A stretch of 63,115 nucleotides of DNA from assembly GCA_017463245.1 (NCBI GenBank), contig JAFTPN010000009.1, positions 1 through 63,115 on the forward strand, in the 5' to 3' direction. Below, in pieces: positions 27,362 to 47,824 of the stretch. The notes beneath the pieces were generated by a model that saw only the letters and a program-made list of their open reading frames with translations, searched no databases and was not told the DNA's origin. The stretch's first letter is position 1, and the number at the start of each line of letters is the position of its first letter. The stretch comes from Clostridia bacterium. GTDB lineage: Bacteria; Bacillota; Clostridia; Christensenellales; Aristaeellaceae. Made by a program: the position numbers and the translations under genes.

Positions 27362-27826
27362 TTATTGTTCCATCTGTCGGCCAACGATGCCAGCGGCGGT
27401 CTCGGCCACCTTGAGCTCCGTGTCGCCCATGCGGGCGCCCTGCTCGCGGCTGAGGAGCAGCACAGCACCAATGGCCTCGCCATCGGCAATGATGGGGGAA
27501 AGCACCTGGGCGGTGTAGCCCTGGGCGTCTTCCTCGTTGGTGATGGCCACGGTTTTGCCGCCCAGGTTGCGGTTGATGGCCACCGTCTGCCGATTGGCAA
27601 TAGCGGTTTCCAGGTCGTGGCTGATGGGCTTGTCCCAGAGCTCCTTCTTGCTCACGCCGCTGGCGGCTACCACCTGGTCGCGATCGACGATGCAGGCAAT
27701 ATGCCCCAGGGAGCGGAAGAGGGACTCGGTGTAGTCCTTGGCGAAGGATTGCATCTCGCCGATGGGGGAATACTTTTTCAGAATGACTTCGCCGTCGCGG
27801 TCGGTATAGATCTCCAGCGGGTCGCC
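27362..27826 (-). pseudogene. spoVT: spoVT 3' part (GAF domain), separated from its 5' part by the element
   Basis: Residues from GDPLEIYTDRDGEVILKKYS to GRQMEQ match SpoVT from residue 31 to the end. They include IACIVDRDQVVAASGVSKKEL and the C-terminal VAETAAGIVGRQMEQ of the GAF domain. The 5' part lies about 20 kb away at 47734-47824. Joining the two at the 9-bp core gives a 184-residue protein, close to the 178 residues of B. subtilis SpoVT. The following genes (yabM, yabN, yabO types) confirm the locus. In the present state this part is translated only as the tail of the recombinase. Confidence 0.92.
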
Positions 27827-29527
27827 GTCACTGATAACATGGACATCGAAAACCTTGTCCTTCTGATTGCGGGCAGATTGGACAATACGGCAGTTCAAGT
27901 TCTCGATGCCCTGATTAAAATTTACGGTGTCCTCCATGGCTTCCGTGCGGATGAGGGTGTCGATGTCAGCTTGCAGCTGGATTTCCAGATGGTTCTCATA
28001 TACATGGATGCGCTGGATGATCAGTTCCAGATCGGTGCGGTCCAGCTTTTCTTTTTCAAGGATATCCTTGAAAACATCGATGGCGGTTTTCGCTGTGCGG
28101 TTCACCTGAATGATGGTGTTGCGCTTGTCGGACAGCATCTGAATCTGCTTTTCAAGGCCGTCGATCTTGCGCAGCAGGTCTTCTTCCATTTCGTCGTAGG
28201 TGGCATCCAGCGCCGCTTCCTGATCCGGGTGCTTCATGATGTCCCTGATGCGTTGGCGCTTGGTAACCTTCAGTTCTTCCTTCAGCTCGTCCTGAAGCTT
28301 GGCCAAATTGTCGGCGGAGATTTCCGTTTCGGCGATATCGTCCGTTTCGCTGGCAAGGTCGGCGTTGAGCCTGTCCAGCATGGCCGAAGAAGAATCCATC
28401 ACCTTCCGCACGTAGATTTTCAGCAGCTCGTCCAGCTTATCCACACGGATGTGATGGCTACTACAGCCCTTGGTGCCCCGGCGGTGGTAGGTGCCGCAGG
28501 TGTACGCGGGCTGCAGGTCGCTGCGGCTCATGGCAAACATGGGGCTGCCGCAATCGCCGCAAGTGAGGAAGCCGGAGTAGAAGTTGTCGTTCTTCTTCAC
28601 GCCCCGGTAATGGCTGGTGGAGCGTTTTTCCCGTAGGGCTTTCGCCATGGCGAAGGTGCGATAGGAGATGATCTCCTGATGGTGATTCTCGATGACGATG
28701 TGCTCGTTGGCATCCAGCTTCACATCCTTGCCGTTGATCTTGGCGCGGGTGTATTTGCGCTGACGGAAGGTGCCGATGTAGAAGTCGTTTTCCAGAATGC
28801 CCTGAATGGATGCGATAGCCCAAACGCGCTTGACTTCCCGCTTGCTCTCGCCGCCCTCGGCCTCTTTGCGCATCTGCTCGCTCATGCGCGGCGTGGGAAT
28901 GCCTTCGTCCGTCAGGTGGTTGGCGATCTTCTTGTAGCCCCAACCTTGCTCGATGTACAGCTTGTAAATCTGCCGTACGATCTCCGCTTCTGTAGGGACG
29001 ATCTCAAACTCTTTCTGCTTATTGACGATGTAGCCATACGGCGCGGCGCAGATCCATTCCCCCTCCTGCTGGCGGTGCTTGATGACGTTCTTCACCTTGC
29101 GGGAGGTGTCGGTGACGGGCATTTCGTTGATGAGGAACTGGAACTGAATCTTCAGCCAGTCGTTATCGTTGGGATAGTCCACGTTTTCTCCGATTGAAAT
29201 AATGCGGACTTTGTTATCACGCAGATCTTCCAGCTCCACCAGACCACGGCTGTTCCGGCGGGAAAAACGGGAAAAGTCCTTGACGATCAAAATTTTGTAG
29301 GTGCGATCCATCAGGCCTTTGCGCATGACTTGGTAGCCTTCCCGCTGCTCAAAAGTATAACCACTGCGGTCACGATCTTCAAAAAAGGTCAGCGTGCTGC
29401 CGGGAAAACGTTCTTTCACGTATTCCTCGATAATGGCCTTCTGGTTTTCGATGGATATGTTATCACGATCCAGCTCGTCATCTACGGAAATACGGGCATA
29501 GCCGGCAATGTTAAAGGTTTCGGTCAA
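27362..29527 (-). CDS. Large serine recombinase fused in frame to the SpoVT GAF domain
   Basis: A 721-residue chimera created by integration. Residues 1-570 are a large serine integrase: the resolvase domain has YARISVDDELDRDNISIENQ (catalytic Ser in the first segment) and FSRFSRRNSRG, the recombinase domain has GYIVNKQKEFEIVPTEAEIV, the zinc ribbon has TCGDCGSPM...YTCGTYHRRG, and a coiled coil follows. At the att core (codons 568-570, GDP) the frame passes into SpoVT: LEIYTDRDGEVILKKYSPIG and ending VAETAAGIVGRQMEQ, the GAF domain of the sporulation regulator. TTG was chosen as start because GGAGG lies eight bases upstream. In the excised circle it would instead end in a 24-residue tail now found at 47651-47725. 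Confidence 0.93.
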   Translation of the reverse strand: MTETFNIAGYARISVDDELDRDNISIENQKAIIEEYVKERFPGSTLTFFEDRDRSGYTFEQREGYQVMRKGLMDRTYKILIVKDFSRFSRRNSRGLVELEDLRDNKVRIISIGENVDYPNDNDWLKIQFQFLINEMPVTDTSRKVKNVIKHRQQEGEWICAAPYGYIVNKQKEFEIVPTEAEIVRQIYKLYIEQGWGYKKIANHLTDEGIPTPRMSEQMRKEAEGGESKREVKRVWAIASIQGILENDFYIGTFRQRKYTRAKINGKDVKLDANEHIVIENHHQEIISYRTFAMAKALREKRSTSHYRGVKKNDNFYSGFLTCGDCGSPMFAMSRSDLQPAYTCGTYHRRGTKGCSSHHIRVDKLDELLKIYVRKVMDSSSAMLDRLNADLASETDDIAETEISADNLAKLQDELKEELKVTKRQRIRDIMKHPDQEAALDATYDEMEEDLLRKIDGLEKQIQMLSDKRNTIIQVNRTAKTAIDVFKDILEKEKLDRTDLELIIQRIHVYENHLEIQLQADIDTLIRTEAMEDTVNFNQGIENLNCRIVQSARNQKDKVFDVHVISDGDPLEIYTDRDGEVILKKYSPIGEMQSFAKDYTESLFRSLGHIACIVDRDQVVAASGVSKKELWDKPISHDLETAIANRQTVAINRNLGGKTVAITNEEDAQGYTAQVLSPIIADGEAIGAVLLLSREQGARMGDTELKVAETAAGIVGRQMEQ
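27818..27839. other. Left attachment site (core plus inner arm)
   Basis: The core CGGGTCGCC (27818-27826) is repeated exactly at 47726-47734. The inner arm GTCACTGATAACA (27827-27839) is the inverted partner, with one mismatch, of TGTTATCTGTGAC at the right end (47714-47726). Confidence 0.88.
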
Positions 29528-29595
29528 TGGGCTCACCTCCTGGGTTCGACAAATTTTCCATGATATCGACAGGTTGTTTATTTAATGCAGATAAT

Positions 29596-29624
29596 ATTGT
29601 ATATCAAAATCATAAGTATTGCAA
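29596..29624 (-). promoter_or_regulatory. Promoter of the recombinase gene
   Basis: Read leftwards: TTGCAA, 17 bases, TACAAT, about 70 bases before the TTG start. Confidence 0.65.
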
Positions 29625-29645
29625 GTACCTATTTGTAAACAAAGA

Positions 29646-29686
29646 AACCGGCAAAGCAGGAACACAATGTATCTGCTTTACCGGTT
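29646..29686 (-). terminator. Terminator of the restriction operon
   Basis: AACCGG-AAAGCAG and CTGCTTT-CCGGTT pair (one asymmetry) around a 13-nt loop. Read leftwards it is followed by TCTTTGTTT. It starts 17 bases after the Mrr-like gene stop. Confidence 0.7.
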
Positions 29687-29702: not shown

Positions 29703-30608
29703 TTACTCTTCTGAACTGTAGAACTCATCAAGAACATAAGTTTTCACAGGCGTAATATACAGTTCATATCGAATCACTAAACGAACCAGTTCATTTCCAT
29801 CAATCAGCGTAATGGGAGAGCCTTCTCTGGATGCTGTTCGGGCGGCATTGGTAAATCTGCCATTCGTGATAAAGACGCCGTAATCTGCTTGATATTTATT
29901 CATGGCTCCCAAGAACTGATTGATTTCAGGCTCTGATACAGGAGCAACGTTATAGCGTTTGCACTGTATGACCACTCTTGTGGTGCGGAAATCATTGGCG
30001 TCAATATGGTAGCCATATCCGTCAATACCGCCGTCGTTGCTGATCTGGACACCCTTTTCTGTGAATTCAACACCCATGCGATTAAGAAGTGCTCGCGAGA
30101 AAGCTTCGAACTTTTTCGGCGACATCTTAGCAATAGAAGCAAGAAGCGTTTCCTTGAAATCATCTTTCAACTTTTCACCGGCTTCCGGTTCTTCTTCGTT
30201 GTCGCCGATATCAGCAGCTTTATTCTTCTTGTTGTTTTTGCTTAATTCTTCCCAATGCTTCTTGGATGGCTCGATGATTTCTTTCTCAACATCCAGTTTT
30301 TCAACGTCAATATACAACCCTTTTTCCGTTAATGTGACAGGCGAAGAATCGGTGTATGTGAGCAAATCATTGAAAAACAGATCCTTAATTGCGAAGTTAA
30401 ACTTGAAGTTGAACTCTTTATAGGTGTTTCCGGTCTTCTTCGATTTCTTCACTATTTCAGCATATTCCGCAATTTGATCATCCAGATCAGCAATACGTTC
30501 CTTGATCTCCGAACGCTCCAACTGACCGCCGGCATCTTGTAGCACTTTCAGAATGGGCTTGATCAGATAAGCGATTCTTTTTTCCGACGGCATTTCCAGT
30601 AACTTCAT
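29703..30608 (-). CDS. Mrr-like restriction endonuclease
   Basis: A 301-residue protein with an N-terminal winged-helix Mrr_N-like region (residues 1-110, containing TYTDSSPVTLTEKG) and a C-terminal PD-(D/E)xK nuclease. The nuclease motif is SNDGGIDGYGY near residue 190, followed by VVIQCKRYN near 213, the D...Q-x-K signature of Mrr and related type IV enzymes that cut methylated DNA. The start was set at MKLLEM because AGAGG is eight bases upstream; a longer start at 30653 lacks a ribosome site. It follows a type III restriction subunit in the same operon and may add cleavage of foreign modified DNA. Confidence 0.87.
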   Translation of the reverse strand: MKLLEMPSEKRIAYLIKPILKVLQDAGGQLERSEIKERIADLDDQIAEYAEIVKKSKKTGNTYKEFNFKFNFAIKDLFFNDLLTYTDSSPVTLTEKGLYIDVEKLDVEKEIIEPSKKHWEELSKNNKKNKAADIGDNEEEPEAGEKLKDDFKETLLASIAKMSPKKFEAFSRALLNRMGVEFTEKGVQISNDGGIDGYGYHIDANDFRTTRVVIQCKRYNVAPVSEPEINQFLGAMNKYQADYGVFITNGRFTNAARTASREGSPITLIDGNELVRLVIRYELYITPVKTYVLDEFYSSEE

Positions 30609-30642
30609 CGCTATTTCCTCTTTGTTTCTATAACATTTTGAG

Positions 30643-33288
30643 TTACGCTTCATATCGCTTCGCCAATTGCAAGAAGGAAGAGTTAGGCATCACCTGTTTA
30701 GAAGGAATGAACAGATACCTCCATTCCTTATATCCATTTGCCTTTCCCCAACGAGTTGCAACCTCGCAGTACTGAATACTACGCTTCTTCTTGGCGATGA
30801 CATCCGGTTCATTCAGCTTATCTTCGCCTTTGACCTCAACGAGATAGATGATATCTTCAGTTTCAACTACAAAGTCTGGCTCATAGCTATGGCCATGATT
30901 GTAGGTGATATTGAACTCTTGCGGTGCAGGACGGAGCCAGTTTTGTACATCGACATCATATTCCAGCACTCGCGCCAGAAGCAGTTCGGGATGGCTGTCA
31001 AACTTTGCCCTATCGAATACACCTTTTTTGATACCATCAAAAAGCACCGATGTGATTTTTTCAGAGTACGCAGAAAAAAGGTTTACTCGCTCAACATAGC
31101 TATAAGACTGCTGCAGGTTATAGTTTCGTGTGCCCACCACTTCTTCTTGCAAAAATCCATTCTCGCAGTAGAAGTGCTGAAGCATTTGCTTGTATATCTT
31201 GTTCCCGATGTCACGCTTGTACATCATAACGATGTTCTGCATGCCATTATCACCATAGCTCGCTGCATAGTGGTCACAAACCTGCGTGATCAACTTGAAC
31301 AGCAAATTAGCGCACTTTTCATAATCAATTTCGGGCTTTTGCCGAAGCTGTTCCAGAATAACTTTCTTCGGATTATACCCTTCGAAATCGATAGCTTCAC
31401 CCTTGATGCGCTGACGATCCTGCATGTCTTCCAGGTTCTGTACAAGGAGTTCGTTCTTGATAGGCACATGGGTAAATTCATCCATATCAAGATCAAAGTC
31501 CATGAATACATACTCTTCAACGCCAGCATCAGTAACTTTAATGCGAGGGATCGGAATAAACTTGCTGACAGCAGCACGATGCGTTTCTTCTGTCTGATGC
31601 AGCAGCCACGCAGCCAACGGCAGCTCGTTCTCCTTAAAAACTTCACCCAAGTCCCTATCTTCAGATACCTTTTTCTTGACCGTTTCTACGATCTGCTGTG
31701 CCTGTGTAGAAGTAACTGTGTGGGCGGGCGTATGCTGAATATGATGTGAAACCTCTGTAGTGATGATTTCAGCAGCCTTCTTTAGCAGATTATCCGTAGT
31801 CTCGCTTTTCGGCAGCTTCGTCTGCTCATAAGCTTTATCAAGCGTAGTATCTAAAAGTGGCTCAATGGATAGCTGCGTATAGGTTGTCTGCTCCGGCAGG
31901 AGTTCTTCGACCATGATAACATTTCCGGCTTTGAAAATGGAATCGCCCCTTTGCGCTTCAGCCAGAATATCATCAAACTTATCGTGGGCGGTCAACATAA
32001 CAGCATCCACATCTCGATCCCCGGTGCGCTCACCGTAGGGCAAACGAAGTCCTCTGCCGACCATTTGCTCACGCAGAATCTTGGATGCAGCAGTACGAAG
32101 CGGCACAATGGTATAAAGGTTGTTTACATCCCAACCTTCCTTCAACATATTAACGTGGATAACGATTTCCACCGGGTTATCCGGATTTTCTACATCAAGG
32201 AGCAGCCGAGTATTAGCCTCTGTCTCGGAGCCTTTCTGCTTAGAGTGAACGATGATAGTCTTATTGCGATATTCGCCATTACGGAACTCATCGGACTTTA
32301 TGAAACTTTCCACCCACGCAGCATGATCGGTATCCTTGCAGACAACGAGCATAAAAGGCTTTACGAGATGCTTATCGTGATTGTCAGCATAAACCTTCAA
32401 TTTGCGCTTGGTGCTTTCGTGGCAGGTGATTCCGTCCAGAATCATCATTTTATCAAGCTGCTCATCGCCGAAATTGTAGAAATCAATATCGGAACGTGTA
32501 ACCGCAAACGGAGTACGAGTATAGCCATCCTCAATGGCCTTGGATAGCGGATACTCAAAGACCACATTCTTGAACGGAACTTGCTTAGTGCCATTAGTCA
32601 CAAGCGGCGTAGCAGTCAGTTCCAGTCCGAGCAAAGGATTTAGCTCATTAAGAGCCTGTGCGCCCTTCTCTGCACGATAATGGTGCGATTCATCCATAAT
32701 AAGCACAAGATCAGGCAGATTGGAAAGGTATTGATAGAACGAGTCACCAATGACCTCGTTCACCTTTTTCATGTTGGCGCCTTCCTTGTTGAACTTATCG
32801 ATATTATATACGAAGATACGAATATCGGATTCAAATAGGGAGATAGTTTTGTCTCGGTAATCATCATCTGTGATAATCTGCGGAGGCGTGCTAAAGCAAC
32901 CAAGTCCCTTAAAGACATACTTGGCGCTATTGAAATCGCTTAAATCCTTTTTCAGTTTATCGTAAATGGTGGTGTTAGGAGCCACGACAAAGAAGTTCTT
33001 GATATTGTGCTGGGTATACAGATAAGCAATGAAAGCGCCCATCAGCCTGGTTTTGCCCACACCGGTAGCCAGCGCAAAAGTCAGCGACATGAAGTCGCGC
33101 TCAAAATCGGAGCAGATCGGATACATAGCGTGAACAGCCCCAAGGGCGGCTTTCAAGTTCATACCCTTGCGGAGCATAACGCTATTAACGATTTCCTCCA
33201 GAATTTTGAGAGACTTTTCCTGCGGTTTGCGTAAGGACATTACGCCGCTGATGTAGTCAGTTGTGTATTGAGGAAAGTAATTATTCAT
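30643..33288 (-). CDS. Type III restriction enzyme, Res subunit (DEAD-box helicase/nuclease)
   Basis: An 881-residue ATP-dependent restriction subunit. Walker A is ALATGVGKTRL near residue 75, the DEAD-like box is MDESHHY at 198-204, followed by LTATP. The helicase C-terminal motif is GRGLRLPYGERTGD. The late region EYDVDVQNWLRPAPQEFNITY...DFVVETEDIIYLVEVKGE contains a PD-(D/E)xK nuclease (D...E-V-K). With the adjacent Mod methyltransferase it should cut unmodified DNA after translocation between two sites. GGAGG lies six bases upstream of the chosen start. It overlaps mod by eight bases. Confidence 0.93.
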   Translation of the reverse strand: MNNYFPQYTTDYISGVMSLRKPQEKSLKILEEIVNSVMLRKGMNLKAALGAVHAMYPICSDFERDFMSLTFALATGVGKTRLMGAFIAYLYTQHNIKNFFVVAPNTTIYDKLKKDLSDFNSAKYVFKGLGCFSTPPQIITDDDYRDKTISLFESDIRIFVYNIDKFNKEGANMKKVNEVIGDSFYQYLSNLPDLVLIMDESHHYRAEKGAQALNELNPLLGLELTATPLVTNGTKQVPFKNVVFEYPLSKAIEDGYTRTPFAVTRSDIDFYNFGDEQLDKMMILDGITCHESTKRKLKVYADNHDKHLVKPFMLVVCKDTDHAAWVESFIKSDEFRNGEYRNKTIIVHSKQKGSETEANTRLLLDVENPDNPVEIVIHVNMLKEGWDVNNLYTIVPLRTAASKILREQMVGRGLRLPYGERTGDRDVDAVMLTAHDKFDDILAEAQRGDSIFKAGNVIMVEELLPEQTTYTQLSIEPLLDTTLDKAYEQTKLPKSETTDNLLKKAAEIITTEVSHHIQHTPAHTVTSTQAQQIVETVKKKVSEDRDLGEVFKENELPLAAWLLHQTEETHRAAVSKFIPIPRIKVTDAGVEEYVFMDFDLDMDEFTHVPIKNELLVQNLEDMQDRQRIKGEAIDFEGYNPKKVILEQLRQKPEIDYEKCANLLFKLITQVCDHYAASYGDNGMQNIVMMYKRDIGNKIYKQMLQHFYCENGFLQEEVVGTRNYNLQQSYSYVERVNLFSAYSEKITSVLFDGIKKGVFDRAKFDSHPELLLARVLEYDVDVQNWLRPAPQEFNITYNHGHSYEPDFVVETEDIIYLVEVKGEDKLNEPDVIAKKKRSIQYCEVATRWGKANGYKEWRYLFIPSKQVMPNSSFLQLAKRYEA

Positions 33289-34966
33289 CGCAATCCTCCT
33301 CATCCCACTCATCGTCATATACCGGCGGATGCACGATGTTCAAATTATAATCAGTCTTGCCAAACTCGCAGCGACTGAGAAGCATCTGCGGGATCTTCTT
33401 GATGGTGATGTTGCTATATACCTTATCCAAACCGCTATCAAAGGAACGGCAGGCAATAATGAGATATTCGCCATCCTCCATGGTATCTTTAATAGAATCC
33501 AGATAGGTGCTGTTAAGGTGGCGCGTGGTCACAAAGAGATAGCTGTTCTCATTGCCTACAGACTGTTTCCAGAACAAGTTGCCATCCGGCTGATAACGGA
33601 AACCTTCGTGTAAAGCAACGGCCGCCGCAAGCATATCAGCATTATATTCCTCGTTGATAACAAATTCGTCAAATAGGTCACGATTGATAAGTGTAGGTGC
33701 CAGTTCATAAAAACGGAATCCACCGCCGCCTTCCCAATATACATCAGCGGAAATACCTGTTTTATCGCCATCGATTACTCTATTCAAACGAGGCTGACAA
33801 AGAATATAGGCCTGTTCACCCATCTCTACACCGACATAGCGGCGATTCATTTTGTGTGCCACGGCAGCAGTTGTACCTGAACCAAGAAAACTATCCAAAA
33901 CAATATCTCCCGGTGCAGAAAAATGTGATAATAATTGCTTGATTAAAATTTCGGGTTTTTTACCTCCTCGAAATTCCGAGCCACCCTCATGACGACAGTT
34001 GCCAAAGCTGGCAGCCAAATCCCAAAATCCGTTAATAGGAACTTCTCGTGTCATAACGCCGCTCTCAAGTTTATCCATCGGAACACCTTGAAAGTATTTT
34101 CCTTTAGTCGCACCTACTTTATTAGGGCCTGTAAAGAAGCGATAGTCATAGCGATCATCACCAATTCCATAGACTTTATAAAGTACGCCATAGCCATCAT
34201 CTTCGTAACGGCCTGTCAAATAGTCACGGAAAAAGCGTCCAGAAGAATTACCATCCAGAATGGTACCGGATGCCCAGATTTCCTTCAGTCCATATTCTGA
34301 CCCTTCTTCTTCGATGATACGGTAATCGCCCTTCGCATAAACCTCTACCTGTTTTCCACCAAGTTCTATTGTTTTAATTGGCTCTGCCGTTGTTTCGATT
34401 CTGTACTTAAACTTTTCATACCCTGCTTCCACTGTTTGTAGCATGGGTTTTGCAAGCGGGGTCTTTCTATATACATGGACTTGTTCAATTTCCTTGTGAA
34501 ACGCCATATCCTGTTTAAGCGTTTTTTCTGGGTAACGCACACGCACATAAATTGTGGTTAAATAATTTGAACGCCCAAAAATCTCGTCAAGGATTGTTTT
34601 TAGATAATGACCCTCGGAATCATCAATTTGACAACAGAAGAACCCATCGTCAGCCAATAATTCACGCAGCATAACTAACCGTGCGTGCATTAATTTAAGC
34701 CAAATACTATGTTCAAGGTTATCATCATAATATTCAAATGCTTCACCTGTGTTATAAGGTGGGTCTATGTATATACATTTCACCTGCCCTGCAAGCCGGG
34801 GCTCTAAAGCTTTCAGTGCCAACAGATTATCACCGTGAATAAGCATATTCTCGGTATCTGGATCAGCGCCAGTATTGGATAGCGCCGCATTCTCAATCAG
34901 CAGACGAGGCTCAATACGAATAGGCTCGTCCTTACCGTACCATGTAAGCTCCAGTTTATTTGCCAT
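33281..34966 (-). CDS. Type III DNA methyltransferase, Mod subunit
   Basis: A 561-residue N6-adenine methyltransferase of the beta class, shown by the motif order. DPPYNTG (motif IV) is at residues 68-74, and the SAM-binding SFLGSGTTA (motif I) comes later at about 359-367. The stretch between them (about 120-330) is the target-recognition domain, here with a repetitive basic and aromatic composition, and it determines the recognised site, which cannot be read from sequence. AGGAGG lies eight bases before the ATG. With Res it forms a type III restriction-modification complex. Confidence 0.93.
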   Translation of the reverse strand: MANKLELTWYGKDEPIRIEPRLLIENAALSNTGADPDTENMLIHGDNLLALKALEPRLAGQVKCIYIDPPYNTGEAFEYYDDNLEHSIWLKLMHARLVMLRELLADDGFFCCQIDDSEGHYLKTILDEIFGRSNYLTTIYVRVRYPEKTLKQDMAFHKEIEQVHVYRKTPLAKPMLQTVEAGYEKFKYRIETTAEPIKTIELGGKQVEVYAKGDYRIIEEEGSEYGLKEIWASGTILDGNSSGRFFRDYLTGRYEDDGYGVLYKVYGIGDDRYDYRFFTGPNKVGATKGKYFQGVPMDKLESGVMTREVPINGFWDLAASFGNCRHEGGSEFRGGKKPEILIKQLLSHFSAPGDIVLDSFLGSGTTAAVAHKMNRRYVGVEMGEQAYILCQPRLNRVIDGDKTGISADVYWEGGGGFRFYELAPTLINRDLFDEFVINEEYNADMLAAAVALHEGFRYQPDGNLFWKQSVGNENSYLFVTTRHLNSTYLDSIKDTMEDGEYLIIACRSFDSGLDKVYSNITIKKIPQMLLSRCEFGKTDYNLNIVHPPVYDDEWDEEDCDE

Positions 34967-35003
34967 GAGGTTATCCTCCTGTGTTCTGTGCAAACTCTTT
35001 TAA

Positions 35004-37192: not shown

Positions 37193-37287
37193 TTTTGTTC
37201 CTTTCTGTGGTAAAGTCGGATTCACCCGCCCGAGCCGCCCGTCACGCCAGAGTGGGCACTTGGGCGGCAGGGGCGGATGATTTGCAG

Positions 37288-39155: not shown

Positions 39156-39275
39156 TGTGGTTTCCTCCTCAAAATGGATTGATGCGCGCTCATCGAGACC
39201 CATTGTAGGAGAGGTGTAGAAGATACGCTTGTATTTCGGCCTATTTGCAAGCAAAATGAAAAAAGCCTCTCTTGA

Positions 39276-39323
39276 CTTGCAAAAATGCAAGAAAGATGGA
39301 ACGAATTAACAGGATGATTCGTT
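39276..39323. promoter_or_regulatory. Divergent control region with two dyads
   Basis: CTTGCA-4-TGCAAG at 39276-39291 and AACGAAT-10-ATTCGTT at 39300-39323 lie between the CHC2 gene and the HTH regulator. A half copy (TTGCAAG) is at 39246-39252. They are likely operators for the adjacent regulator. A weak rightward TTAACA-17-TTATAT is possible at 39306-39334. Confidence 0.5.
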
Positions 39324-40410: not shown

Positions 40411-40782
40411 TTATTCCTTTTTGGGATGGATAAATCCCATCAAGCGTTTGAAGAGACTTCGTTTCTTCCGTTTTTCTGCCTTCGGAAGTTCGGAAGAAGT
40501 AGAGGAAAACATATCTGCCCATACCACGTTATTTTTCCGGATCCAGTAGTGGGACTTGCAAGCAAACTGGAAGTTGCCGATAGATGGGTGCAGGGAGATT
40601 GTTTCACCGTCGTATTCAATCCTCCAGAAGTCAGGATCAATGGGAAGGATTACTTTTTCGCCGCAACCGCATGCACACAGATGAACGACCACGTTACAGT
40701 CAAAACATACATATAGTACATCGGACTGAAGTGTTTCCGGTACTCTGTGGACAATCTCAGTTTTAAAGGTCTTCATGCGCAT
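40411..40782 (-). CDS. DUF6527 protein (predicted zinc-binding, ubiquitin-like system component)
   Basis: A 123-residue protein with a cysteine cluster at residues 26, 29, 36, 38 and 40 plus His34 (VCFDC...HLCACGCGEKV), then LPIDPDFWRIEYDGETISLH and an FQFACKSHYWIRKNNVVWA segment with a further Cys and His. I recognise this as the DUF6527 pattern, found next to ThiF/E1-like and multi-ubiquitin genes. A treble-clef or RING-like zinc site is plausible but unproven. The start has GGAGA eight bases upstream and overlaps the E1-like gene by 20 bases. The C-terminus is strongly basic. Confidence 0.8.
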   Translation of the reverse strand: MRMKTFKTEIVHRVPETLQSDVLYVCFDCNVVVHLCACGCGEKVILPIDPDFWRIEYDGETISLHPSIGNFQFACKSHYWIRKNNVVWADMFSSTSSELPKAEKRKKRSLFKRLMGFIHPKKE

Positions 40783-41932
40783 AATTGAACTCTCCATCGT
40801 TTGTGGTATAGACACAGTTCGATGCGCGTACATCGTCGCGATAGAACCCCAGACTCTTCTTCCATTGCATTATTGCGTTGAGAGCACAAAAAGCATTGAG
40901 ATCCGCAGTCTGGATATTGGTCTGGTATAGATCCTGTTCTACTTCGTCGAAAGAGATGTGGGCGTCAACTGCTTGTCTGTTCCCGCTATGTGATACAGTT
41001 GATCGAGCCATGCCAATGAGTGAGGCCTCGGCACGATTGATGCTGATTCCTGTATCGATGAAGGTAATGTTGCGACTGAGCAGATGGTTCACAATGACTT
41101 TCTTGCAAACACCAGAATCCATCGCAAGGAAAACGAAGTCCAGTCCATCCAACTCACACACATTATGCTCATCAAGATGATACGGGTGCGAGTGGATGCA
41201 TCGGTGCATATTGCTGTAGATTCCTTGGAAGTAGTCTGTCTTGAAAGGCTGCTTTTCAAAGACATCTATGCAAGGTGCACCCGGAGCCCTGAAGGCATTG
41301 TGCTGGCAAAAAACATCACCATCAAACAAATGGATCTCTTCGACCGGTGTTTTTGCAACCTGATCCAGCAAGTACGATCCAGTTCCGCCAAGGCCGATGA
41401 TACCGATGCGCAGTCCTTTGAATCTGTCGGTGGCATCCATGATTGCGCCACGAGACGAGTTGGTGTCTGCATAGCATAAAACACTATCATCGGAGCTTAC
41501 GATCCTCTTGAAAGTAGTGGCTGTTGCTGTAGGATCGACAGCCTGTGCTTCAGCGGAGAGGATGCGTATGTATGATGTGAACTTCTGGTAGTTATCCTTG
41601 TATCCGTCTTTGGGTTTATTGGACAGCATCATGTTTACAGGAATGCCAGCGTATTTGTTGTTGATTTGGCTGTGGTATACAGCATCCATACGGACACCAA
41701 TTTTGTGATACGGAACGTTTCCCTGCATATACATGATGTGGTCGTGGGGAGCTCGAACAGTGGTTCCACTCATGTTGAGCTTTGCTACAAGGGTACCGTA
41801 CTGGACAGTACAAGTACTGTCCAGATACGGCACGTGGTAAACGATGGCACAACCCTCGCGAACTTCGAGCTCATAACCTTCGTCCTGAAGACGCTTCAAG
41901 TCAGAATTACGACTTATTACTACATCCGACAT
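40763..41932 (-). CDS. E1-like ThiF-family adenylyltransferase
   Basis: A 389-residue protein. The C-terminal two thirds form an E1/ThiF Rossmann domain with IIGLGGTGSYLLDQVA (nucleotide loop GLGGTGS at 180-186), HLFDGDVFCQHN (the D-x-D that coordinates Mg-ATP) and FVFLAMDSG. The N-terminal about 160 residues are a separate domain, with SNKPKDGYKDNYQKFTSYIR, seen in ThiF proteins of such operons. The family adenylates the C-terminus of a ubiquitin-like protein. The candidate substrate is encoded directly upstream, overlapping by 26 bases. No separate E2 or JAB peptidase is present. Confidence 0.87.
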   Translation of the reverse strand: MSDVVISRNSDLKRLQDEGYELEVREGCAIVYHVPYLDSTCTVQYGTLVAKLNMSGTTVRAPHDHIMYMQGNVPYHKIGVRMDAVYHSQINNKYAGIPVNMMLSNKPKDGYKDNYQKFTSYIRILSAEAQAVDPTATATTFKRIVSSDDSVLCYADTNSSRGAIMDATDRFKGLRIGIIGLGGTGSYLLDQVAKTPVEEIHLFDGDVFCQHNAFRAPGAPCIDVFEKQPFKTDYFQGIYSNMHRCIHSHPYHLDEHNVCELDGLDFVFLAMDSGVCKKVIVNHLLSRNITFIDTGISINRAEASLIGMARSTVSHSGNRQAVDAHISFDEVEQDLYQTNIQTADLNAFCALNAIMQWKKSLGFYRDDVRASNCVYTTNDGEFNYAHEDL

Positions 41933-42287
41933 TGAAGATCATCCCCTTCTTGACATGGACGATGCTGCCTTTCACCATGGTACCCTTACGATTTTCGACG
42001 GGTCCGTTGGAGAAGACTACGGTGTAGATCGTGTTAGCGCTGGTGCTGTTTGCCCCAAAGGCAAGCCGGACAACCTCGTCATAGGAGATCTGGGTGGTTC
42101 CGGCAGGCAGAACCTTATCCATTCCATTGACAATGATGACGATCGGCTCAGTTGGCACCCCGGGCTTGTCAGGCCTGTCCGGTTTTTCCGGAGGCTTGGG
42201 AGGTGCAGGAGGAGTAGGGTGGTCGGGGCGTTCCGGATGAGGATGCTCAACCGGAGGGGAAACGGGTTTCTCATGGTCGTGAAGCAT
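41907..42287 (-). CDS. Ubiquitin-like protein with proline-rich N-terminus (multi-ubiquitin domain type)
   Basis: A 126-residue protein. Residues 1-45 are a Pro/His/Lys-rich linker with PxxP repeats. Residues about 47-121 match one copy of the multi-ubiquitin domain: IVIIVNGMDKVLPAG, ISYDEVVRLAF, a central strand YTVVFSNGP, and the closing KGSIVHVKKGMIFNVG. A short C-terminal tail (CSNKS) follows, with no terminal Gly-Gly, so processing or non-conjugating use would be needed. It is first in the three-gene operon with the E1-like and DUF6527 genes. The exact chemistry is not shown by sequence. Confidence 0.85.
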   Translation of the reverse strand: MLHDHEKPVSPPVEHPHPERPDHPTPPAPPKPPEKPDRPDKPGVPTEPIVIIVNGMDKVLPAGTTQISYDEVVRLAFGANSTSANTIYTVVFSNGPVENRKGTMVKGSIVHVKKGMIFNVGCSNKS

Positions 42288-42417: not shown

Positions 42418-42423
42418 GGAAGG

Positions 42424-42550: not shown

Positions 42551-43624
42551 TCAACTACGCCTTACAAGGTCCAGCAGTTCAACGAAGTAAAATGTTTTAT
42601 TTCGCTTTCGGTCGTCACTTCGAAGAATGCGATTATTCTCGAGTGCATCCAGATAGCGCTTCGCTTGACCCGCAGTAACTCCTAATTTGTCTGCCAGGGA
42701 TATGGAGTTCATTACAGGATGGGTAAACAAACACTCTAAGATTTGGTCAAAGCGTGGGGTGTTAATCACTTCTTGAAGAACTCGTTTCGTTTGCATATAC
42801 AACCTGTTCAGGGAGTCTATGTAATTGATGTGGATGTGTGCTTGTACAACGCATTTTCTAAGGAAGAAACTTATCCATTCATCATAGCTCCCGTTTCTTG
42901 AGGCCGTAAGCATATTGTAGTATACCCGCTTATCCTGGCTGATGGCTTCGCTCATGTAGAAAAGGGGACAGTTGATCACCTTGGCTTTGTACAGATAAAG
43001 ACTGATCAGGAGTCTTCCTACTCGTCCGTTACCATCTTCGAAAGGATGGATGGATTCGAACTGAGAGTGAATAATGGCAGCCTTGATCAACGGGTTTATA
43101 CCGTCGGTCGTATTGTTCATGTAGGCTATCAGCTCATCCATGTATTTTTTCGTTTCCGTGTGCGGAGGCGGTGTGAAGATGAGTGTTCCTACACTGTTGA
43201 CTATTTTGTTGTCTTGTGTCTTATAACGACCAAGGGTCTTTTGCTGCTCCTCTGTTACAATTCCATTCATTATTTGCTTGTGTAGCGATTTGATGAAGGA
43301 ATGCGAGAAGAGGTTATTGCGAAGATAGTCAGAACCATATAGGATGCTTCTTGTATGATTGTTGAACTCGACAATCACTTTATCGTTATTTGGTTGATTC
43401 CTAATTTCATCCTCAAATACATCGCTAATGGTAGTTTGCGTTCCTTCGATATACATGGTTGATTGTGCCTCGCGTTTATGCAGCAGCGGTATCAAGATCT
43501 GGTCAAAGTGGTAGCCGCTAATTTTTGCTTCCAGCACTCCCAAGACCTTTGATGCTTCGAATAGCTCATTGATGAAGCTGTTAGCATTATAGTCATTCAG
43601 CCTTTCGCGGAGAAACTTTAGCAT
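42551..43624 (-). CDS. Fic family protein (predicted AMPylase), class II-like
   Basis: A 357-residue protein with the full Fic active-site motif HPFEDGNGRVGR at residues 193-204. An N-terminal inhibitory motif TMYIEG is at 56-61, matching (S/T)xxxE(G/N), so activity is expected to be self-inhibited until relieved. The C-terminal 90 residues form a winged-helix-like DNA-binding region (SLADKLGVTAGQAKRYLDAL). Fic enzymes transfer AMP or other nucleotide parts to protein targets. AAGGAGG lies six bases before the ATG. It stands alone under its own dyad-containing promoter between the two structured repeats. Confidence 0.9.
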   Translation of the reverse strand: MLKFLRERLNDYNANSFINELFEASKVLGVLEAKISGYHFDQILIPLLHKREAQSTMYIEGTQTTISDVFEDEIRNQPNNDKVIVEFNNHTRSILYGSDYLRNNLFSHSFIKSLHKQIMNGIVTEEQQKTLGRYKTQDNKIVNSVGTLIFTPPPHTETKKYMDELIAYMNNTTDGINPLIKAAIIHSQFESIHPFEDGNGRVGRLLISLYLYKAKVINCPLFYMSEAISQDKRVYYNMLTASRNGSYDEWISFFLRKCVVQAHIHINYIDSLNRLYMQTKRVLQEVINTPRFDQILECLFTHPVMNSISLADKLGVTAGQAKRYLDALENNRILRSDDRKRNKTFYFVELLDLVRRS

Positions 43625-43660
43625 GTGCTTCCTCCTTCCCGATAATTGCTCCACGACTGT

Positions 43661-43694
43661 ATTATATGAGATATATTGTCAAAAGTCAATATAT
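43661..43694 (-). promoter_or_regulatory. Promoter and operator of Fic 1
   Basis: Read leftwards: TTGACT, 17 bases, TATAAT (43661-43689). An 8-bp inverted repeat ATATATTG/CAATATAT (43671-43694) covers the spacer and the -35 box, so a bound repressor would block RNA polymerase. Fic 1 has its own winged-helix segment and could be the repressor. Confidence 0.7.
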
Positions 43695-43695
43695 T

Positions 43696-43724
43696 ACCTG
43701 CATGTTTTTGAAAAAGATGCAGGT
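43696..43724. repeat. 29-bp near-perfect palindrome upstream of Fic 1
   Basis: ACCTGCAT and ATGCAGGT are exact complements. The bases between them (GTTTTTGAAAAAG) are also nearly self-complementary. It is probably a second operator or a terminator. Confidence 0.6.
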
Positions 43725-43806
43725 AACAACAGATTAAACGACCGAAAAACAGCTGTTTTTGCGTTATGAAGCTAATTATCGTTTATTGGTTATATCGCTT
43801 GATATA

Positions 43807-43958
43807 CCTCTTGTGGCCCCCGGCGACGTTGTCGCCTACATACGAAGAGGGAGGGTATGCGATCTTTCGATCACACACCCTCCCTCTTCTGCTGCCGTCA
43901 GAAAAGCGTCGCGTCGCACCGGACGCACCCCCTTTCCGCCGTTAGCGGGCACAAAAGG
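43807..43958 (+). repeat. Multi-hairpin repeat, copy 2 (complete form, abutting oriT)
   Basis: Outer ends CCTCTTGTGG... and GGGCACAAAAGG (43947-43958) can pair. Inside are GGCGAC-3-GTCGCC (43822-43836), the main hairpin (43844-43856 with 43877-43889) and GCGTC/GACGC (43911-43926), then a CCGC-GCGG stem. Relative to copy 1 two main-stem base pairs are changed on both arms, preserving pairing. Confidence 0.85.
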
Positions 43959-43997
43959 TATAACACACTACACTTTCAAACTGAAAGTCGTGTGCCA
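43957..43997 (-). other. MOBV-type origin of transfer (oriT)
   Basis: Read leftwards: CACAC, two bases, ACTTTCA, three bases, TGAAAGT, three bases, then GTGTG followed by TTATAC. This matches the layout of the pMV158 oriT (inverted repeat, then TAGTGTG/TTATAC with the nick at the slash). The predicted nick is on the minus strand between 43964 and 43963. The cognate MOBV relaxase is on the same element. Confidence 0.82.
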
Positions 43998-44093
43998 ACA
44001 GGACGCTCGCACCCCTATTGGATGACCCAGCGCAAAGCCGGCAGAGCCGTCTTTGGAAGCGTGCCATGCGGATAGTCACGCTTCTTTTGCTGG

Positions 44094-45086
44094 TCAGCCC
44101 ACCCGGATGTACGTCTGGTTCCGGCTGGTGGGCTTGTCCGGCATCCCCATCACCACCAGCCCTTTTTCCATGGCTGGGCCGATGTAGAGTTTCCGCAGGT
44201 TCTCCTTGGACTTGAGTCCAAGAGCCGCCATAATCTGTGCAGCGGTATACGGCACGTCGTACTCCATCACATCCAGCAAACGGCGTATCTGTTCAGTCAG
44301 ATACGCATCCTCGCCGGAAACCTGAGTGAGCACCCAATCCAGCGTCAGATTGATCTTGTCCAGCATGAACTCAACAAACTCATCTGACTTACCAACTCTG
44401 TGACAGGCTGCAATAGCCTCGTAGTATTCATCCTGAAACTCATGGATGCGACTCTCCAAGGGGAGGTACTGGAATACGGGATTCCACGCGGATAACAAGG
44501 CCGTCTGCCACAGACGAGCCATACGCCCATTGCCATCGGCAAAAGGATGGATGAACACAAATTCATAATGGAACACAGAAGAAAGAATCAGTGGATGCAC
44601 TGTGTCGGCTGCTCGTCGCATCCAGCCGAAAAGGGATTCCATCTGTTCCGGTACGAGATGCGGCGGCGGTGCCATGAAAATGCATTTGTTGTCCCGAAAA
44701 ACGCCTTCATCTCCCGTGCGGAACATACCTGACTCCTGTACTGTCAGATAGGTCATCACGCCATGCAGGGATTTTAGATCGTCAACAGAATAGGGATCAA
44801 ATTCGCCGATCTGGTCATAAGCCTGATAGGCATTCTTGACCTCCTGGATTTCTTTTTGCGGGCCAAGAACGGTCTTGCCAGCAATAACGCCTTTGACTTC
44901 ATCAAGCGACAAAGAATTGGCCTCAATCGCCAGCGACGAATGTATCGAGCGAATACGATTGTTGCGGCGCAAATGCGGCTTGCTTTCGAAGGTGCGGTAG
45001 TTGCTGATACGTCCCGTCTTTTCGGCGATCTCCGCAACCAGCGTTAGCATTCGATTAGAAATGGTGAATGGCGGTTCGTAAGGCAT
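44094..45086 (-). CDS. Fic family protein (second, Fic/DOC with C-terminal winged helix)
   Basis: A 330-residue protein with the Fic motif HPFADGNGRMAR at residues 180-191 and an upstream regulatory segment SLAIEAN (51-57), close to the inhibitory (S/T)xxxE(G/N) but with Ala after the Glu. The last 70 residues (IRRLLDVMEYDVPYTAAQIM) resemble a winged helix. The start at 45086 has AGAGG nine bases upstream; a GTG at 45095 is too close to it. It is only distantly similar to Fic 1 and has its own promoter. The upstream HTH gene at 45221 may regulate it. Confidence 0.9.
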   Translation of the reverse strand: MPYEPPFTISNRMLTLVAEIAEKTGRISNYRTFESKPHLRRNNRIRSIHSSLAIEANSLSLDEVKGVIAGKTVLGPQKEIQEVKNAYQAYDQIGEFDPYSVDDLKSLHGVMTYLTVQESGMFRTGDEGVFRDNKCIFMAPPPHLVPEQMESLFGWMRRAADTVHPLILSSVFHYEFVFIHPFADGNGRMARLWQTALLSAWNPVFQYLPLESRIHEFQDEYYEAIAACHRVGKSDEFVEFMLDKINLTLDWVLTQVSGEDAYLTEQIRRLLDVMEYDVPYTAAQIMAALGLKSKENLRKLYIGPAMEKGLVVMGMPDKPTSRNQTYIRVG

Positions 45087-45110
45087 AGACTGCACCTCTC
45101 TTTCAACATT

Positions 45111-45921: not shown

Positions 45922-46572
45922 ATGACTATTCGTGAAATGAGAACGCGACTTGGTAATACGCAAAGCGAATTTGCCGCGCGATATAATATTCCTTTCCGTA
46001 CAATTCAAAACTGGGAAGCAGGTGTCCGCAATCCCCCTGACTATATCATTAATTTGTTAGAAGGGCGTGTACGAGCTGATCTTGTCAATCGCAGAACAAC
46101 AACGCTGCCAAAGTATGACCCGCAGAAGCTTGATCTGCCCAAGCGACGCGATTATGTTGGGGCATTTGCCTGGTTAAAGGCAGTGCGTGAAAGTCTTGGT
46201 GAAAGCATTGTCTTTGCGCTGGACGAAGCACTCATGTGCCAAGGCCACTTTGGAGGCCGTAGTGATGAATTTATTGTGTGGGTATATGGAGATGATGCTG
46301 TTACTCGTTTTAACGGCGTAGTTGTCCTTGGCAATCAAGTCAGCCCCTATCATGTGAAGGAAAAGAACGGCTTGCTGTACACCGATTTCAATCGTACCGT
46401 TGCGGACGCATTAGCCAATGAATCTATTCTGGACATGCAAGGCATTACGGAAGCGATCAGCAAGTATTACTATCGTAATGGTGAAAGTCTTGAGGGAATT
46501 ACGGTATCTCCTGAGTACCAATCAAGATTTGAACAATTGGCAGAAGAAGCTATTGACTATTACGGAAATTGA
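45922..46572 (+). CDS. HTH antitoxin-like protein of an AbiE-type pair
   Basis: A 216-residue protein. The N-terminal 55 residues are an XRE-like helix-turn-helix (IREMRTRLGNTQSEFAARYN, IPFRTIQNWEAGVRNPPDYI). The C-terminal domain of about 150 residues is of unknown family and presumably contacts or controls the partner. The gene overlaps no other but ends 15 bases before the nucleotidyltransferase, with its stop inside the leader containing GAGGAGG. Pairing of such a regulator with an AbiEii-like toxin is a recurrent arrangement on clostridial elements. Confidence 0.8.
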   Translation: MTIREMRTRLGNTQSEFAARYNIPFRTIQNWEAGVRNPPDYIINLLEGRVRADLVNRRTTTLPKYDPQKLDLPKRRDYVGAFAWLKAVRESLGESIVFALDEALMCQGHFGGRSDEFIVWVYGDDAVTRFNGVVVLGNQVSPYHVKEKNGLLYTDFNRTVADALANESILDMQGITEAISKYYYRNGESLEGITVSPEYQSRFEQLAEEAIDYYGN

Positions 46573-46586
46573 GGAGGTGGTTTGTG

Positions 46587-47321
46587 ATGATGATTACCGC
46601 AGAAGAAAGATTGATGTATCAGGTTATGAAAGCCATTTATGACAGCGGGATCCCCGTCAGCTTCAAGGGTTCCATGGTGCTGAAGGCTTGTTTGCTTGAA
46701 GCGGGTTATACCGAAGAAACAAGGCACACAGTCGATATTGATGCAAACTGGAATTCAGACACGCCCCCATCCAGCGAACAGATGGTGGAATCCTTGCAAA
46801 ATGCGATTGAAAAGAACGGTATTGATCTGGATGTCAGCCTTTACAGAATGTATGGCGAAGGACGTTCTGCTGGCTTCGAACTGACGGATAAAGGCACAGA
46901 TGAAGTGCTTTTCTCGATGGATATTGATGTGAATCGCCCAATACCGCAAACAAAAATGTATGAGGTAGAAGGCTTTCATTTCCGTGGCGTAGCGCCTGCA
47001 CAGATGATCGCCGATAAGCTCTCGGCAGTATCAAGCGATAAGGTGTTCCGCAGAGTGAAGGATGTTGTTGACTTATACTACTTATCAAAGGTGTTTGATT
47101 TTGATAAGGAAGCCTCCCTGCAAGCACTGAAAAGCAGCAACAGGGAGCTTGGCGATTTCAACGGATTTCTTCATAGGCGCAGCGAATTGCAGCACTCATA
47201 TGAGAAATTCCGCTTTGCCGGTGATGTGGACAAACCGCAATTCGAGGATGTGTACCGTGCTGTAAAAACGTATATTAAGTCTGTGCTTCCCAAAGAGAAG
47301 AACAGAGACTTGGAACGATAA
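46587..47321 (+). CDS. Nucleotidyltransferase, AbiEii/AbiGii toxin family
   Basis: A 244-residue DNA polymerase beta-like nucleotidyltransferase. VSFKGSMVLKACLLE supplies the G-S motif, RHTVDIDANW the catalytic D-x-D, and MDIDVNRPIPQT the third acidic strand; FHFRGVAPAQMIADKLSA with the conserved Lys follows. AbiEii proteins act as toxins that modify tRNA or other nucleotides and cause abortive phage infection. The chosen ATG has GGAGG nine bases upstream; GTG at 46584 is an alternative. A strong terminator follows. Confidence 0.87.
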   Translation: MMITAEERLMYQVMKAIYDSGIPVSFKGSMVLKACLLEAGYTEETRHTVDIDANWNSDTPPSSEQMVESLQNAIEKNGIDLDVSLYRMYGEGRSAGFELTDKGTDEVLFSMDIDVNRPIPQTKMYEVEGFHFRGVAPAQMIADKLSAVSSDKVFRRVKDVVDLYYLSKVFDFDKEASLQALKSSNRELGDFNGFLHRRSELQHSYEKFRFAGDVDKPQFEDVYRAVKTYIKSVLPKEKNRDLER

Positions 47322-47338
47322 ATACTCTTCATTACAGC

Positions 47339-47377
47339 AGCGCCCGACAGATTTTCTCTGTCAGGCGCTGGTTTTTT
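47339..47377 (+). terminator. Terminator of the AbiE-type pair
   Basis: AGCGCC-GACAG pairs with CTGTC-GGCGCT around a 7-nt loop, then a T6 run. It meets the end of the leftward small gene. Confidence 0.85.
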
Positions 47378-47627
47378 ATTTCATTTCCTCCGGCAGTTCA
47401 TACCGTGTCACCGCCTGCAGATACCGTTTCGGATCGCCCTCCACAATCAGCTCCACATAGGCAGCGGGATCATTATAGATCAGATAATCCAGTTCCGACC
47501 GTTGGTACATATTCTCCGCCTCGACTTGCTCCACCTTCGTGCAATCGATAGAGAGGATATGTCCATCCTTCAGCCAGGCATCCACGCAGCCAGTGTCCAT
47601 GTTGTAATAGCAAGCGTACATTTCCAT
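47376..47627 (-). CDS. Small protein of unknown function (DUF6061-like)
   Basis: An 83-residue protein: MYACYYNMDTGCVDAWLKDG, HILSIDCTKVEQVEAE, then YLIYNDPAAYVELIVEGDPK. It resembles a short family on clostridial mobile elements that I associate with DUF6061, though this is from memory. GGGGG lies eight bases before the ATG. In the excised circle this gene would follow the recombinase stop by 23 bases in the same orientation, which makes it a candidate partner, for instance a directionality factor; that is speculation from position. Confidence 0.65.
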   Translation of the reverse strand: MEMYACYYNMDTGCVDAWLKDGHILSIDCTKVEQVEAENMYQRSELDYLIYNDPAAYVELIVEGDPKRYLQAVTRYELPEEMK

Positions 47628-47650
47628 TGTCTGTTCCCCCTTTTGTGCAA

Positions 47651-47824
47651 TTACCATCCAGCCCTTTTCCCCAGATCACTCATCGCAAAGCAAAACCTCT
47701 CCCACGCTTTCCCTGTTATCTGTGACGGGTCGCCCTCCCGAATACGTAGGGTGCGGCGGATCTCTTTGGGGATGACCACGCGGCCAAGTTCGTCGATTCT
47801 GCGCACAATGCCGGTTGCTCGCAC
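47651..47824 (-). pseudogene. spoVT: spoVT 5' part (AbrB-type DNA-binding domain) fused to the recombinase's native tail
   Basis: A 57-codon frame. Residues 1-33 are the SpoVT N-terminus (VRATGIVRRIDELGRVVIPK, then EIRRTLRIREGDP), the swapped-hairpin AbrB/MazE DNA-binding domain. At the core the frame continues for 24 residues (SQITGKAWERFC...KRAGW), which is the C-terminus the recombinase would have in the circular element. The GTG start has AAGGGAGG eight bases upstream. Whether this isolated DNA-binding domain folds or represses anything is unknown. The natural partner, the GAF domain, is at 27362-27826. Confidence 0.9.
47714..47734. other. Right attachment site (core plus inner arm)
   Basis: The core CGGGTCGCC is at 47726-47734 and the inner arm TGTTATCTGTGAC at 47714-47726. 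With the left arm this gives an attP of two 13-bp inverted arms (12 matches) around 8 bases. The rejoined attB reads GAG-GGCGACCCG-CTG in spoVT. Confidence 0.88.

Follow-up and report, generated by a model that had tools for sequence, protein, structure and literature searches.

The sporulation gene spoVT is split in two in the 63,115-nucleotide stretch of DNA analysed here in full (hereafter the window), positions 1 to 63,115 of contig JAFTPN010000009.1 from a Clostridia bacterium of the order Christensenellales, family Aristaeellaceae (assembly GCA_017463245.1). A 19.9-kb element lies between the two parts, at 27818..47734 on the minus strand, bounded by two copies of a short core, one of which belongs to spoVT; the junctions were read directly. 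The parts of the gene, the element's recombinase, a small companion gene (small94), and the arms of attP, the attachment site of the element as opposed to attB, that of the host, are the following.

47860..47888, minus: spoVT promoter GGATA-N17-CATACTA, sigma-F/G type (motif match)
47651..47824, minus: SpoVT codons 1-33, a 24-residue tail and a stop (frame reading; tail compared in 34 edges)
47714..47725, minus: right arm of the attP dyad, TCACAGATAACA, first tail codons (read directly)
36238..36267, minus: small94 promoter GGATA-N15-GTGGAAACTA, sigma-F type (motif match)
35940..36224, minus: small94, candidate recombination directionality factor (RDF), 90 residues, likely start TTG 36215 (co-occurrence, alignment)
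29596..29624, minus: recombinase promoter TTGCAA-N17-TACAAT, sigma-A type (motif match)
29588..29601, minus: copy of an attachment half-site over the -10 of the recombinase promoter (TACAATATTATCTG), candidate autoregulatory operator (motif match)
27362..29536, minus: recombinase-SpoVT_C fusion, 724 residues (Pfam, NCBIfam, solved relatives SPbeta SprA/YokA and SpoVT)
27827..27840, minus: left arm of the attP dyad, ATGTTATCAGTGAC, encoding the recombinase's last element-encoded residues (read directly)
27818..27826, minus: core GGCGACCCG at the recombinase/SpoVT_C junction (read directly)

The core, CGGGTCGCC, is found at 27818-27826 and 47726-47734, and on the minus strand both copies read GGC GAC CCG (Gly-Asp-Pro) with their first bases at 27826 and 47734. 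Since spoVT starts at GTG 47824, these are its codons 31-33. The 5' part of the gene reads past the core in frame for 24 residues (SQITGKAWERFCFAMSDLGKRAGW) and then stops, while at the opposite edge a 570-residue element part (27827-29536) of the recombinase continues into the host's SpoVT from codon 31 to the end (27362-27826). The frame is exact at both edges, and the initial annotation, which had described an element that splits spoVT and swaps gene ends in frame, was right to the base. The 184-residue SpoVT that it expected from excision is also of the right size, as the 33 N-terminal and 151 C-terminal residues add up to the length of the intact SpoVT in another genome, G030. An element that breaks a sporulation gene at a site-specific core, with its own recombinase beside one junction, has two of the traits of a sporulation intervening element, and here too the initial annotation had pointed in the right direction.

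The core 9-mer alone is common, occurring at 26 places in the window's genome. A chance match is nonetheless excluded by the attP dyad, by full-length SpoVT in relatives and by the recurrence of the junction in dozens of genomes (all below). Relatives with an uninterrupted spoVT, for which the initial annotation had called, do exist: nine of 17 same-genus genomes, including L020, have a full-length SpoVT above the model cut-off, and the other eight have only short AbrB-type matches. A second intact spoVT in the window's genome, which would have told against the reading, was not found in an assembly that is 90.8% complete, where the sole other spore_V_T match is a 96-residue AbrB-type frame. 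The spoVT promoter of the window is identical to that of L020, whose spoVT is intact; in its strict form the motif is present at seven of 33 edges and in 11 of 28 intact genes. SpoVT_C shows no sign of decay while split, with non-synonymous divergence (dN) of 0.003 and synonymous divergence (dS) of 0.26-0.28 between the window and its genus-mates L019 and L020, which amounts to strong constraint.

The recombinase contains the Pfam domains Resolvase, Recombinase and Zn_ribbon_recom ahead of SpoVT_C (residues 594-723), as a large serine recombinase should, and its best-scoring solved integrase relatives are from SPbeta (9dxh, 9dxd). When the two arms are joined, the attP of the window reads ATGTTATCAGTGACGG-CGAC-CCGTCACAGATAACA, a dyad with GA at its centre, in which 19 of 25 positions on either side of CGAC are complementary; no other centre exceeds nine of 25. 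In contrast, attB has no centred symmetry (best 11 of 25, off-centre), so that attP differs from attB and is symmetric around its central dinucleotide, again as for large serine recombinases. As read from the sequence, attP lies inside the coding 3' end of the recombinase gene, in the spoVT reading frame, and integration swaps the predicted C-terminus: the recombinase ends in the conserved tail before integration and in the host's GAF domain after it.

The tail is under two kinds of constraint. In the 34 edges, from which L142 was excluded because it duplicates L043, conservation is at the DNA level in codons 1-8, where the ratio of non-synonymous to synonymous differences (pN/pS) is 1.25, and at the protein level in codons 9-24, where it is 0.29. 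The tail approximates to SQxTxxxWExFCFxMxDLAKRxGW and measures 24-28 residues in 33 of the 34. Selection on the tail may act via the recombinase or via the SpoVT_N-tail peptide, two routes that the sequence does not separate.

Start codons could be located in 63 of 87 loci, hence counts of upstream features use 57-63 loci. Among 61 regions upstream of the recombinase, TACAAT occurs in 42, a sigma-A-like pair in 37 and a longer motif joining TACAAT to a half-site in 34, with the consensus TTGCaa-17-TACAATATTATCTGTAA. The remaining 19 regions have no TACAAT, and in several of these the recombinase closely follows another gene. Within the consensus, ATATTATCTGT is similar to the attP half-site (ATGTTATCAGTGA and its mirror), and repression of the promoter by the recombinase itself, bound at this half-site operator, is therefore probable. 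In the window (29588-29601) and in relatives, a mirrored GATA often stands 22 bases beyond the half-site copy at the -10.

Of the 19 window genes, only small94 is widespread upstream of other recombinases; the next most frequent are found in six upstream stretches. It precedes the recombinase in 46 of the 57 loci with at least 600 bp of upstream sequence and in 33 of the 39 with at least 3 kb, and is thus a small protein encoded with the recombinase, as expected of an RDF. Its distribution follows that of the fusion: 19 of 21 fused genomes but one of 129 others in the family of a Pseudoflavonifractor isolate (Fisher 7e-21), and nine of nine fused genomes but one of 387 others in the window's order (Fisher 2e-17), where the Fisher values are not true probabilities because the genomes are related. 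Over both samples this gives 28 of 30 fused and two of 516 other genomes, and makes small94 the only wide companion of the recombinase. The two carriers without a fusion look like relics. In one, G500, the recombinase lies outside spoVT and its frame is broken. The other, G245 (contig C11; L190, 2072-2308), has an intact spoVT with a broken small94 1.2 kb upstream of it, which suggests imprecise loss of an element.

The region upstream of small94 carries what appears to be a forespore-type promoter. Besides the ribosome-binding site, the two strongest blocks in an alignment made without a motif model are G.ATAAa and GaGgAAAaTA, which agree with the sigma-F consensus, GYWTA-N15/16-GGNRANAHTW. 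A spacing of 15 nt is common for sigma-F (PMC5942855). Between elements the spacer has diverged and the blocks have not. Scored against the consensus, 39 of 46 elements reach at least 11 of 13 (shuffled mean 6.9, maximum 13) and 23 of 46 reach at least 12 of 13 (shuffled mean 0.7, maximum 3); at the stricter score the controls gave one of 61 recombinase upstreams and none of 93 random element windows. This scoring was devised after the sequences had been seen and was not blind. Comparing sigma models over 38 loci, z was 11.5 for F, 5.5 for G, 1.5 for E, -0.1 for K and -1.9 for A, while strict sigma-F/G (demanding CATA.TA), sigma-E, sigma-K and sigma-A expressions matched in 0-1 of the 38.

In the carriers and relatives checked, matches to the sigG model were found in 13 of 13 (five above cut-off) and to spoIVA in 12 of 13; the sigF model matched in 34 of 34 (none above cut-off), 29 of them with two or more matches. 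The gene sigG is a standard forespore target, and 13 host sigG upstream regions gave candidate sites on one of two forespore models, in a scan that had no shuffle control; that of G214 reads GCATA...AGGAAAAATAACGG.

The window element is one member of a widespread family. With the element part of the recombinase as query, a scan of species genomes gave 187 relatives, and among the best 80 of these, 78 run in frame into SpoVT_C. The two exceptions are contig L111, which like L133 stops at the core, and L094, which reads other sequence. In the last 140 bases of L094 the recombinase frame leaves at the core, and what follows is not SpoVT_C and not the usual tail either. Four relatives, L135 (a fragment) and L136-L138 (25-28% identity), had no usable recombinase frame and were dropped. 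Among viral contigs, three of four near-full-length relatives run into SpoVT_C (52-58% recombinase identity) and the fourth contig stops at the core. The initial annotation had regarded a recombinase that naturally ends in a GAF domain as a finding that would tell against the split. This test fails, as the 78 relatives do end so because they too are inserted in spoVT, each fused to its own host's gene. The interpretation in that annotation is supported in part: the element is not a one-off, and the forespore role of spoVT had not been remarked on.

Searches with SpoVT models led to the same picture. The fusion is present in at least nine of 396 genomes of the window's order, a lower bound as the match list ended at E 1.8e-40, and also in one genome (G049) among 100 relatives. 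In the family of the Pseudoflavonifractor isolate, SpoVT_C was found in 128 of 150 genomes and is fused in 21 of the 128, none of which has a second SpoVT_C; G572, G519 and G568 were read and are fused, and G596 was not counted, its 586-residue frame being an intact SpoVT in a long frame. Searches of 45 carrier genomes for the opposite edge (SpoVT_N and tail) recovered it in 40 (G469 has a stop, G472 is weak). Of 27 genomes in which one contig holds both edges, 26 show them in the expected order, at a distance of 6.8 to ~80 kb, and two of these elements lie on chromosome-sized contigs (G551, 40 kb; G593, 15.6 kb). Cultured strains are among the carriers: Agathobaculum butyriciproducens DSM 100391 (L074), Butyricicoccus pullicaecorum DSM 23266 (L099) and Oscillibacter valericigenes An411 (L087).

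A few loci are arranged differently. In the exception, G483 (contig C23; L169-L170), the recombinase-SpoVT_C fusion comes first, and SpoVT_N-tail and small94 follow downstream with the same orientation and a separation of 18.5 kb; terminal overlap was absent at six k-mer sizes, which fits neither a standard insertion nor a plain circle. On contig C2 of G465 a single recombinase, at 123473, has two tails upstream of it, at 42995 and 58607, which looks like a tandem arrangement of elements within one spoVT. In Pseudoflavonifractor MSJ-30 the split spoVT is preceded, at ~0.6 kb, by a degenerate second SpoVT start (L175, 2623-2706), which an earlier event may have left. Finally, a SpoVT_N-tail edge at 815466-815552 of NZ_AP023416.1 (Vescimonas fastidiosa) places this strain's split spoVT start on an 861-kb replicon filed as a plasmid.

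The divergence of recombinase and host SpoVT is uncoupled, which indicates that the family moves horizontally. Pairwise identities of recombinase and SpoVT_C were nearly uncorrelated (rho 0.11; 79 loci, 3081 pairs), with such pairs as 0.94 for recombinase with 0.42 for SpoVT_C, or 0.76 with 0.91. Placed on trees (FastTree), host lineages defined by SpoVT_C (eight clusters of at least three) required seven changes when the tree was that of SpoVT_C and 12 when it was that of the recombinase. On these comparisons of sequence the family is horizontally mobile. Vertical inheritance of the split state was rejected as a general rule: of 451 pairs with recombinase dS <0.9, only 148 had SpoVT_C dS <0.9. 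Similar dS marks a few possibly vertical pairs (L112/L118, L114/L121/L127, L105/L110), and cargo is shared in part in those compared (L112/L118, L105/L110, L114/L127).

Cargo differs between elements. That of the window comprises the following.

29703..34993, minus: Mrr-like nuclease, type III restriction subunit and methyltransferase, defence cargo (Pfam; PADLOC)
36221..37225, minus: Mob_Pre relaxase (Pfam)
37288..39290, minus: D5/DUF5906 primase-helicase and CHC2 zinc-finger protein, replication (Pfam; PHROG DNA primase)
40411..42287, minus: DUF6527 protein, DUF6791-ThiF (E1-like) protein and multi-ubiquitin-like protein (Pfam; NCBIfam; weak PADLOC E1-E2)
42551..45095, minus: two Fic proteins (Pfam; PADLOC SoFic)
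45922..47321, plus: helix-turn-helix protein and AbiEii-type nucleotidyltransferase (Pfam; PADLOC AbiEii for the second protein)
47376..47657, minus: DUF6061 small protein, directly after SpoVT_N-tail and downstream of the spoVT promoter (Pfam)

Among the 18 window proteins scanned there is the relaxase and no conjugation or transfer gene, the combination of an integrative and mobilisable element; no phage-related genes were recognised among the window open reading frames scanned, primase-type matches excepted. The genes at 40411-42287 are operon-like and, with PADLOC E1-E2 matches that are weak only, possibly form a little-described ubiquitin-like system. The DUF6061 protein was considered as an RDF and ruled out, being present in seven of 34 edges only.

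One assembly, G030, holds both states of spoVT. Its contigs C6 (intact spoVT) and C115 (SpoVT_N and tail) share exactly 141 terminal bases and diverge after GGCGACCC, so the assembler met both forms, by excision or from mixed strains. Neither a recombinase end nor small94 was found in this assembly.

We consider it fairly probable that small94, driven by sigma-F, and the recombinase free the forespore chromosome of the element and restore spoVT, and that the circle re-integrates after germination. In growing cells spoVT would be interrupted and the recombinase made from its sigma-A-type promoter, probably under self-repression. During sporulation, sigma-F in the forespore would turn on small94, the candidate RDF; the two proteins would then cut the element from the forespore chromosome, making spoVT whole before it is needed, and the circle would remain in the spore. 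After germination, renewed sigma-A activity would supply recombinase with its tail and no small94, and the circle would re-enter spoVT. The sigma-A-type promoter of the recombinase and the sigma-F-type promoter of small94 together would confine excision to the forespore, the site of spoVT action: in Clostridioides difficile spoVT acts there, under sigma-F and sigma-G, and a spoVT mutant forms no heat-resistant spores (PMC3789822). Excision in the forespore would oblige the element to survive as a circle that later re-integrates, the alternative being its loss from spores. A circle would carry a complete recombinase gene, with the gene's own tail and a promoter of vegetative type, in keeping with re-integration at germination. 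Removal during sporulation is what we infer from the forespore-type promoter on small94 and the one assembly with both states, and we infer likewise the excision itself, the role of small94, the autorepression, the compartment and the re-integration. More tentatively, and with rather less confidence, excision from the germ line and re-integration may be programmed in each spore cycle, with the C-terminus of the recombinase (GAF when integrated, tail when circular) recording the state of the DNA and setting the direction of the reaction.

Several observations weigh against this cycle. First, the case for small94 as an RDF is built on its co-occurrence, its size, its place and its promoter. Pfam, NCBIfam and PHROG gave no match, the best PDB sequence match has E 0.034, and the AlphaFold2 model of small94 is of middling confidence (predicted local distance difference test, pLDDT, 75; predicted template modelling score, pTM, 0.47; order strand-strand-helix-strand-helix). 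Second, the promoters are motif matches, for which shuffles overstate independence as the sequences are related. At the looser score of 11 the controls reached seven of 61 recombinase upstreams and 7.5% of random windows; the sigma-G model, which overlaps sigma-F, was also above the shuffles (z 5.5); and five of the 34 carriers have a single sigF-model match at E 1e-40, which can be sigG. Third, the constraint on SpoVT_C may equally be explained by recent insertion, and close recombinases are mostly in hosts with more diverged SpoVT. Fourth, G030 could be a strain mixture. Finally, the attP junction protein was absent from 78 mostly fused genomes, an attP pattern that fits 2685 of 2822 known arm combinations was absent from 400 genomes, and attP was absent from viral contigs by two patterns, the first of which fits 1298 of the 2822 exactly. 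Phages and plasmids gave partial matches only, and with no attP junction in any search, no circle was seen. On the first of these points, RDFs of different recombinases were all unlike each other in the study of the yin element (PMC10747680), so the missing likeness of small94 is weak evidence.

The alternative that survives best, which we nevertheless hold to be unlikely, is a plain mobile element for which spoVT is a convenient attB: it would leave only for transfer or after damage, its carrier would sporulate poorly or not at all, and small94 would do something else. The patchy distribution, the horizontal transfer, the varied cargo with a relaxase, the sigma-A-type recombinase promoter and the lack of a circle in the genomes searched all suit such an element. 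It has difficulty in explaining why a forespore-type promoter is kept across elements with unrelated cargo, and a permanent block of spoVT should be costly to gut spore-formers, to judge from the C. difficile mutant (PMC3789822), yet 21 of 128 SpoVT_C genomes in one family carry the element. It is improbable that the recombinase-GAF fusion is itself the selected product, with the GAF domain gating the recombinase by SpoVT's ligand whatever becomes of SpoVT. The fusion is in frame in 78 of the best 80 of 187 loci, and a serine integrase joined to its RDF favours the reverse reaction (PMC5737554); however, one ancestral position of attP gives an in-frame fusion automatically, which need not be selected, and the GAF domain comes from each host itself. 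Least credible of all is excision in the mother cell with the element retained in the forespore. The precedents consulted point that way, as two take place in the mother cell (PMC4191935, PMC5025042) and a third involves a regulator of that cell (PMC5595907), but C. difficile spoVT has a forespore role under sigma-F and sigma-G (PMC3789822), and neither sigma-E (z 1.5) nor sigma-K (z -0.1) gives a signal in front of small94, where sigma-F reaches 11.5.

The literature searches, which reached most papers by title and the opening of the abstract and took in neither subscription papers nor preprints, brought up no description of an element in spoVT; one phage paper names only an AbrB/MazE/SpoVT-family protein (PMC6669507). 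If true, forespore excision with re-integration would bring a forespore regulator and many gut clostridia, in which sporulation serves transmission between hosts, into the range of DNA rearrangements linked to sporulation, and would reverse the germ-line/soma logic of skin and SPbeta. The element would also provide a natural example of an integrase whose C-terminus is rewritten by the act of integration, and the family offers a large set of serine recombinases with readable attachment sites and a candidate RDF, which are possible tools. These elements also carry defence genes between gut bacteria.

Among known systems, mycobacteriophage BPs is unlike the window element in that the altered protein is reportedly its repressor and its integrase a tyrosine recombinase. 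Its integration-dependent immunity is similar in that an attachment site is placed so that integration changes a phage protein (PMC4557955). Closer in setting is the skin element in sigK of C. difficile (recombinase CD1231, RDF CD1234), which shares a large serine recombinase, a small RDF, or here a candidate, with cell-type-specific control, and a split sporulation regulator. Its recombinase is present in vegetative cells and in both compartments, and a sigma-E-controlled RDF limits excision to the mother cell; the skin RDF is under sigma-E and SpoIIID in the terminal mother cell, as opposed to a sigma-F-type promoter and the spore lineage here, and the available text does not mention swapped ends (PMC5025042). 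SPbeta in spsM (SprA/SprB) likewise has a serine recombinase and inverted repeats at its attachment sites and is a mobile element that leaves during sporulation, as proposed here, but it interrupts a different gene, is excised in the mother cell only and is kept in the spore genome (PMC4191935). The gin element in gerE of Bacillus cereus resembles ours in its 9-bp shared core, in having no recognised phage-related genes, and in an inverted repeat at the element site with an attB that is not symmetric; it differs in that gerE acts in the mother cell, and a recombinase-GAF fusion is not reported in the part of that paper available (PMC5595907). Finally, yin in yabG of Clostridium botulinum is likewise clostridial and prophage-like, with a recombinase and a candidate RDF, but is described as unique to its strain and interrupts a sigma-K-controlled gene (PMC10747680). 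A target acting in the mother cell, as for sigK, spsM, gerE and yabG, is not a formal part of the definition of an intervening element, and spoVT, a forespore regulator in C. difficile with a sigma-F/G-type promoter in the window, does not have this trait. It is this forespore role of spoVT that sets the element apart from the sigK, spsM and gerE cases.

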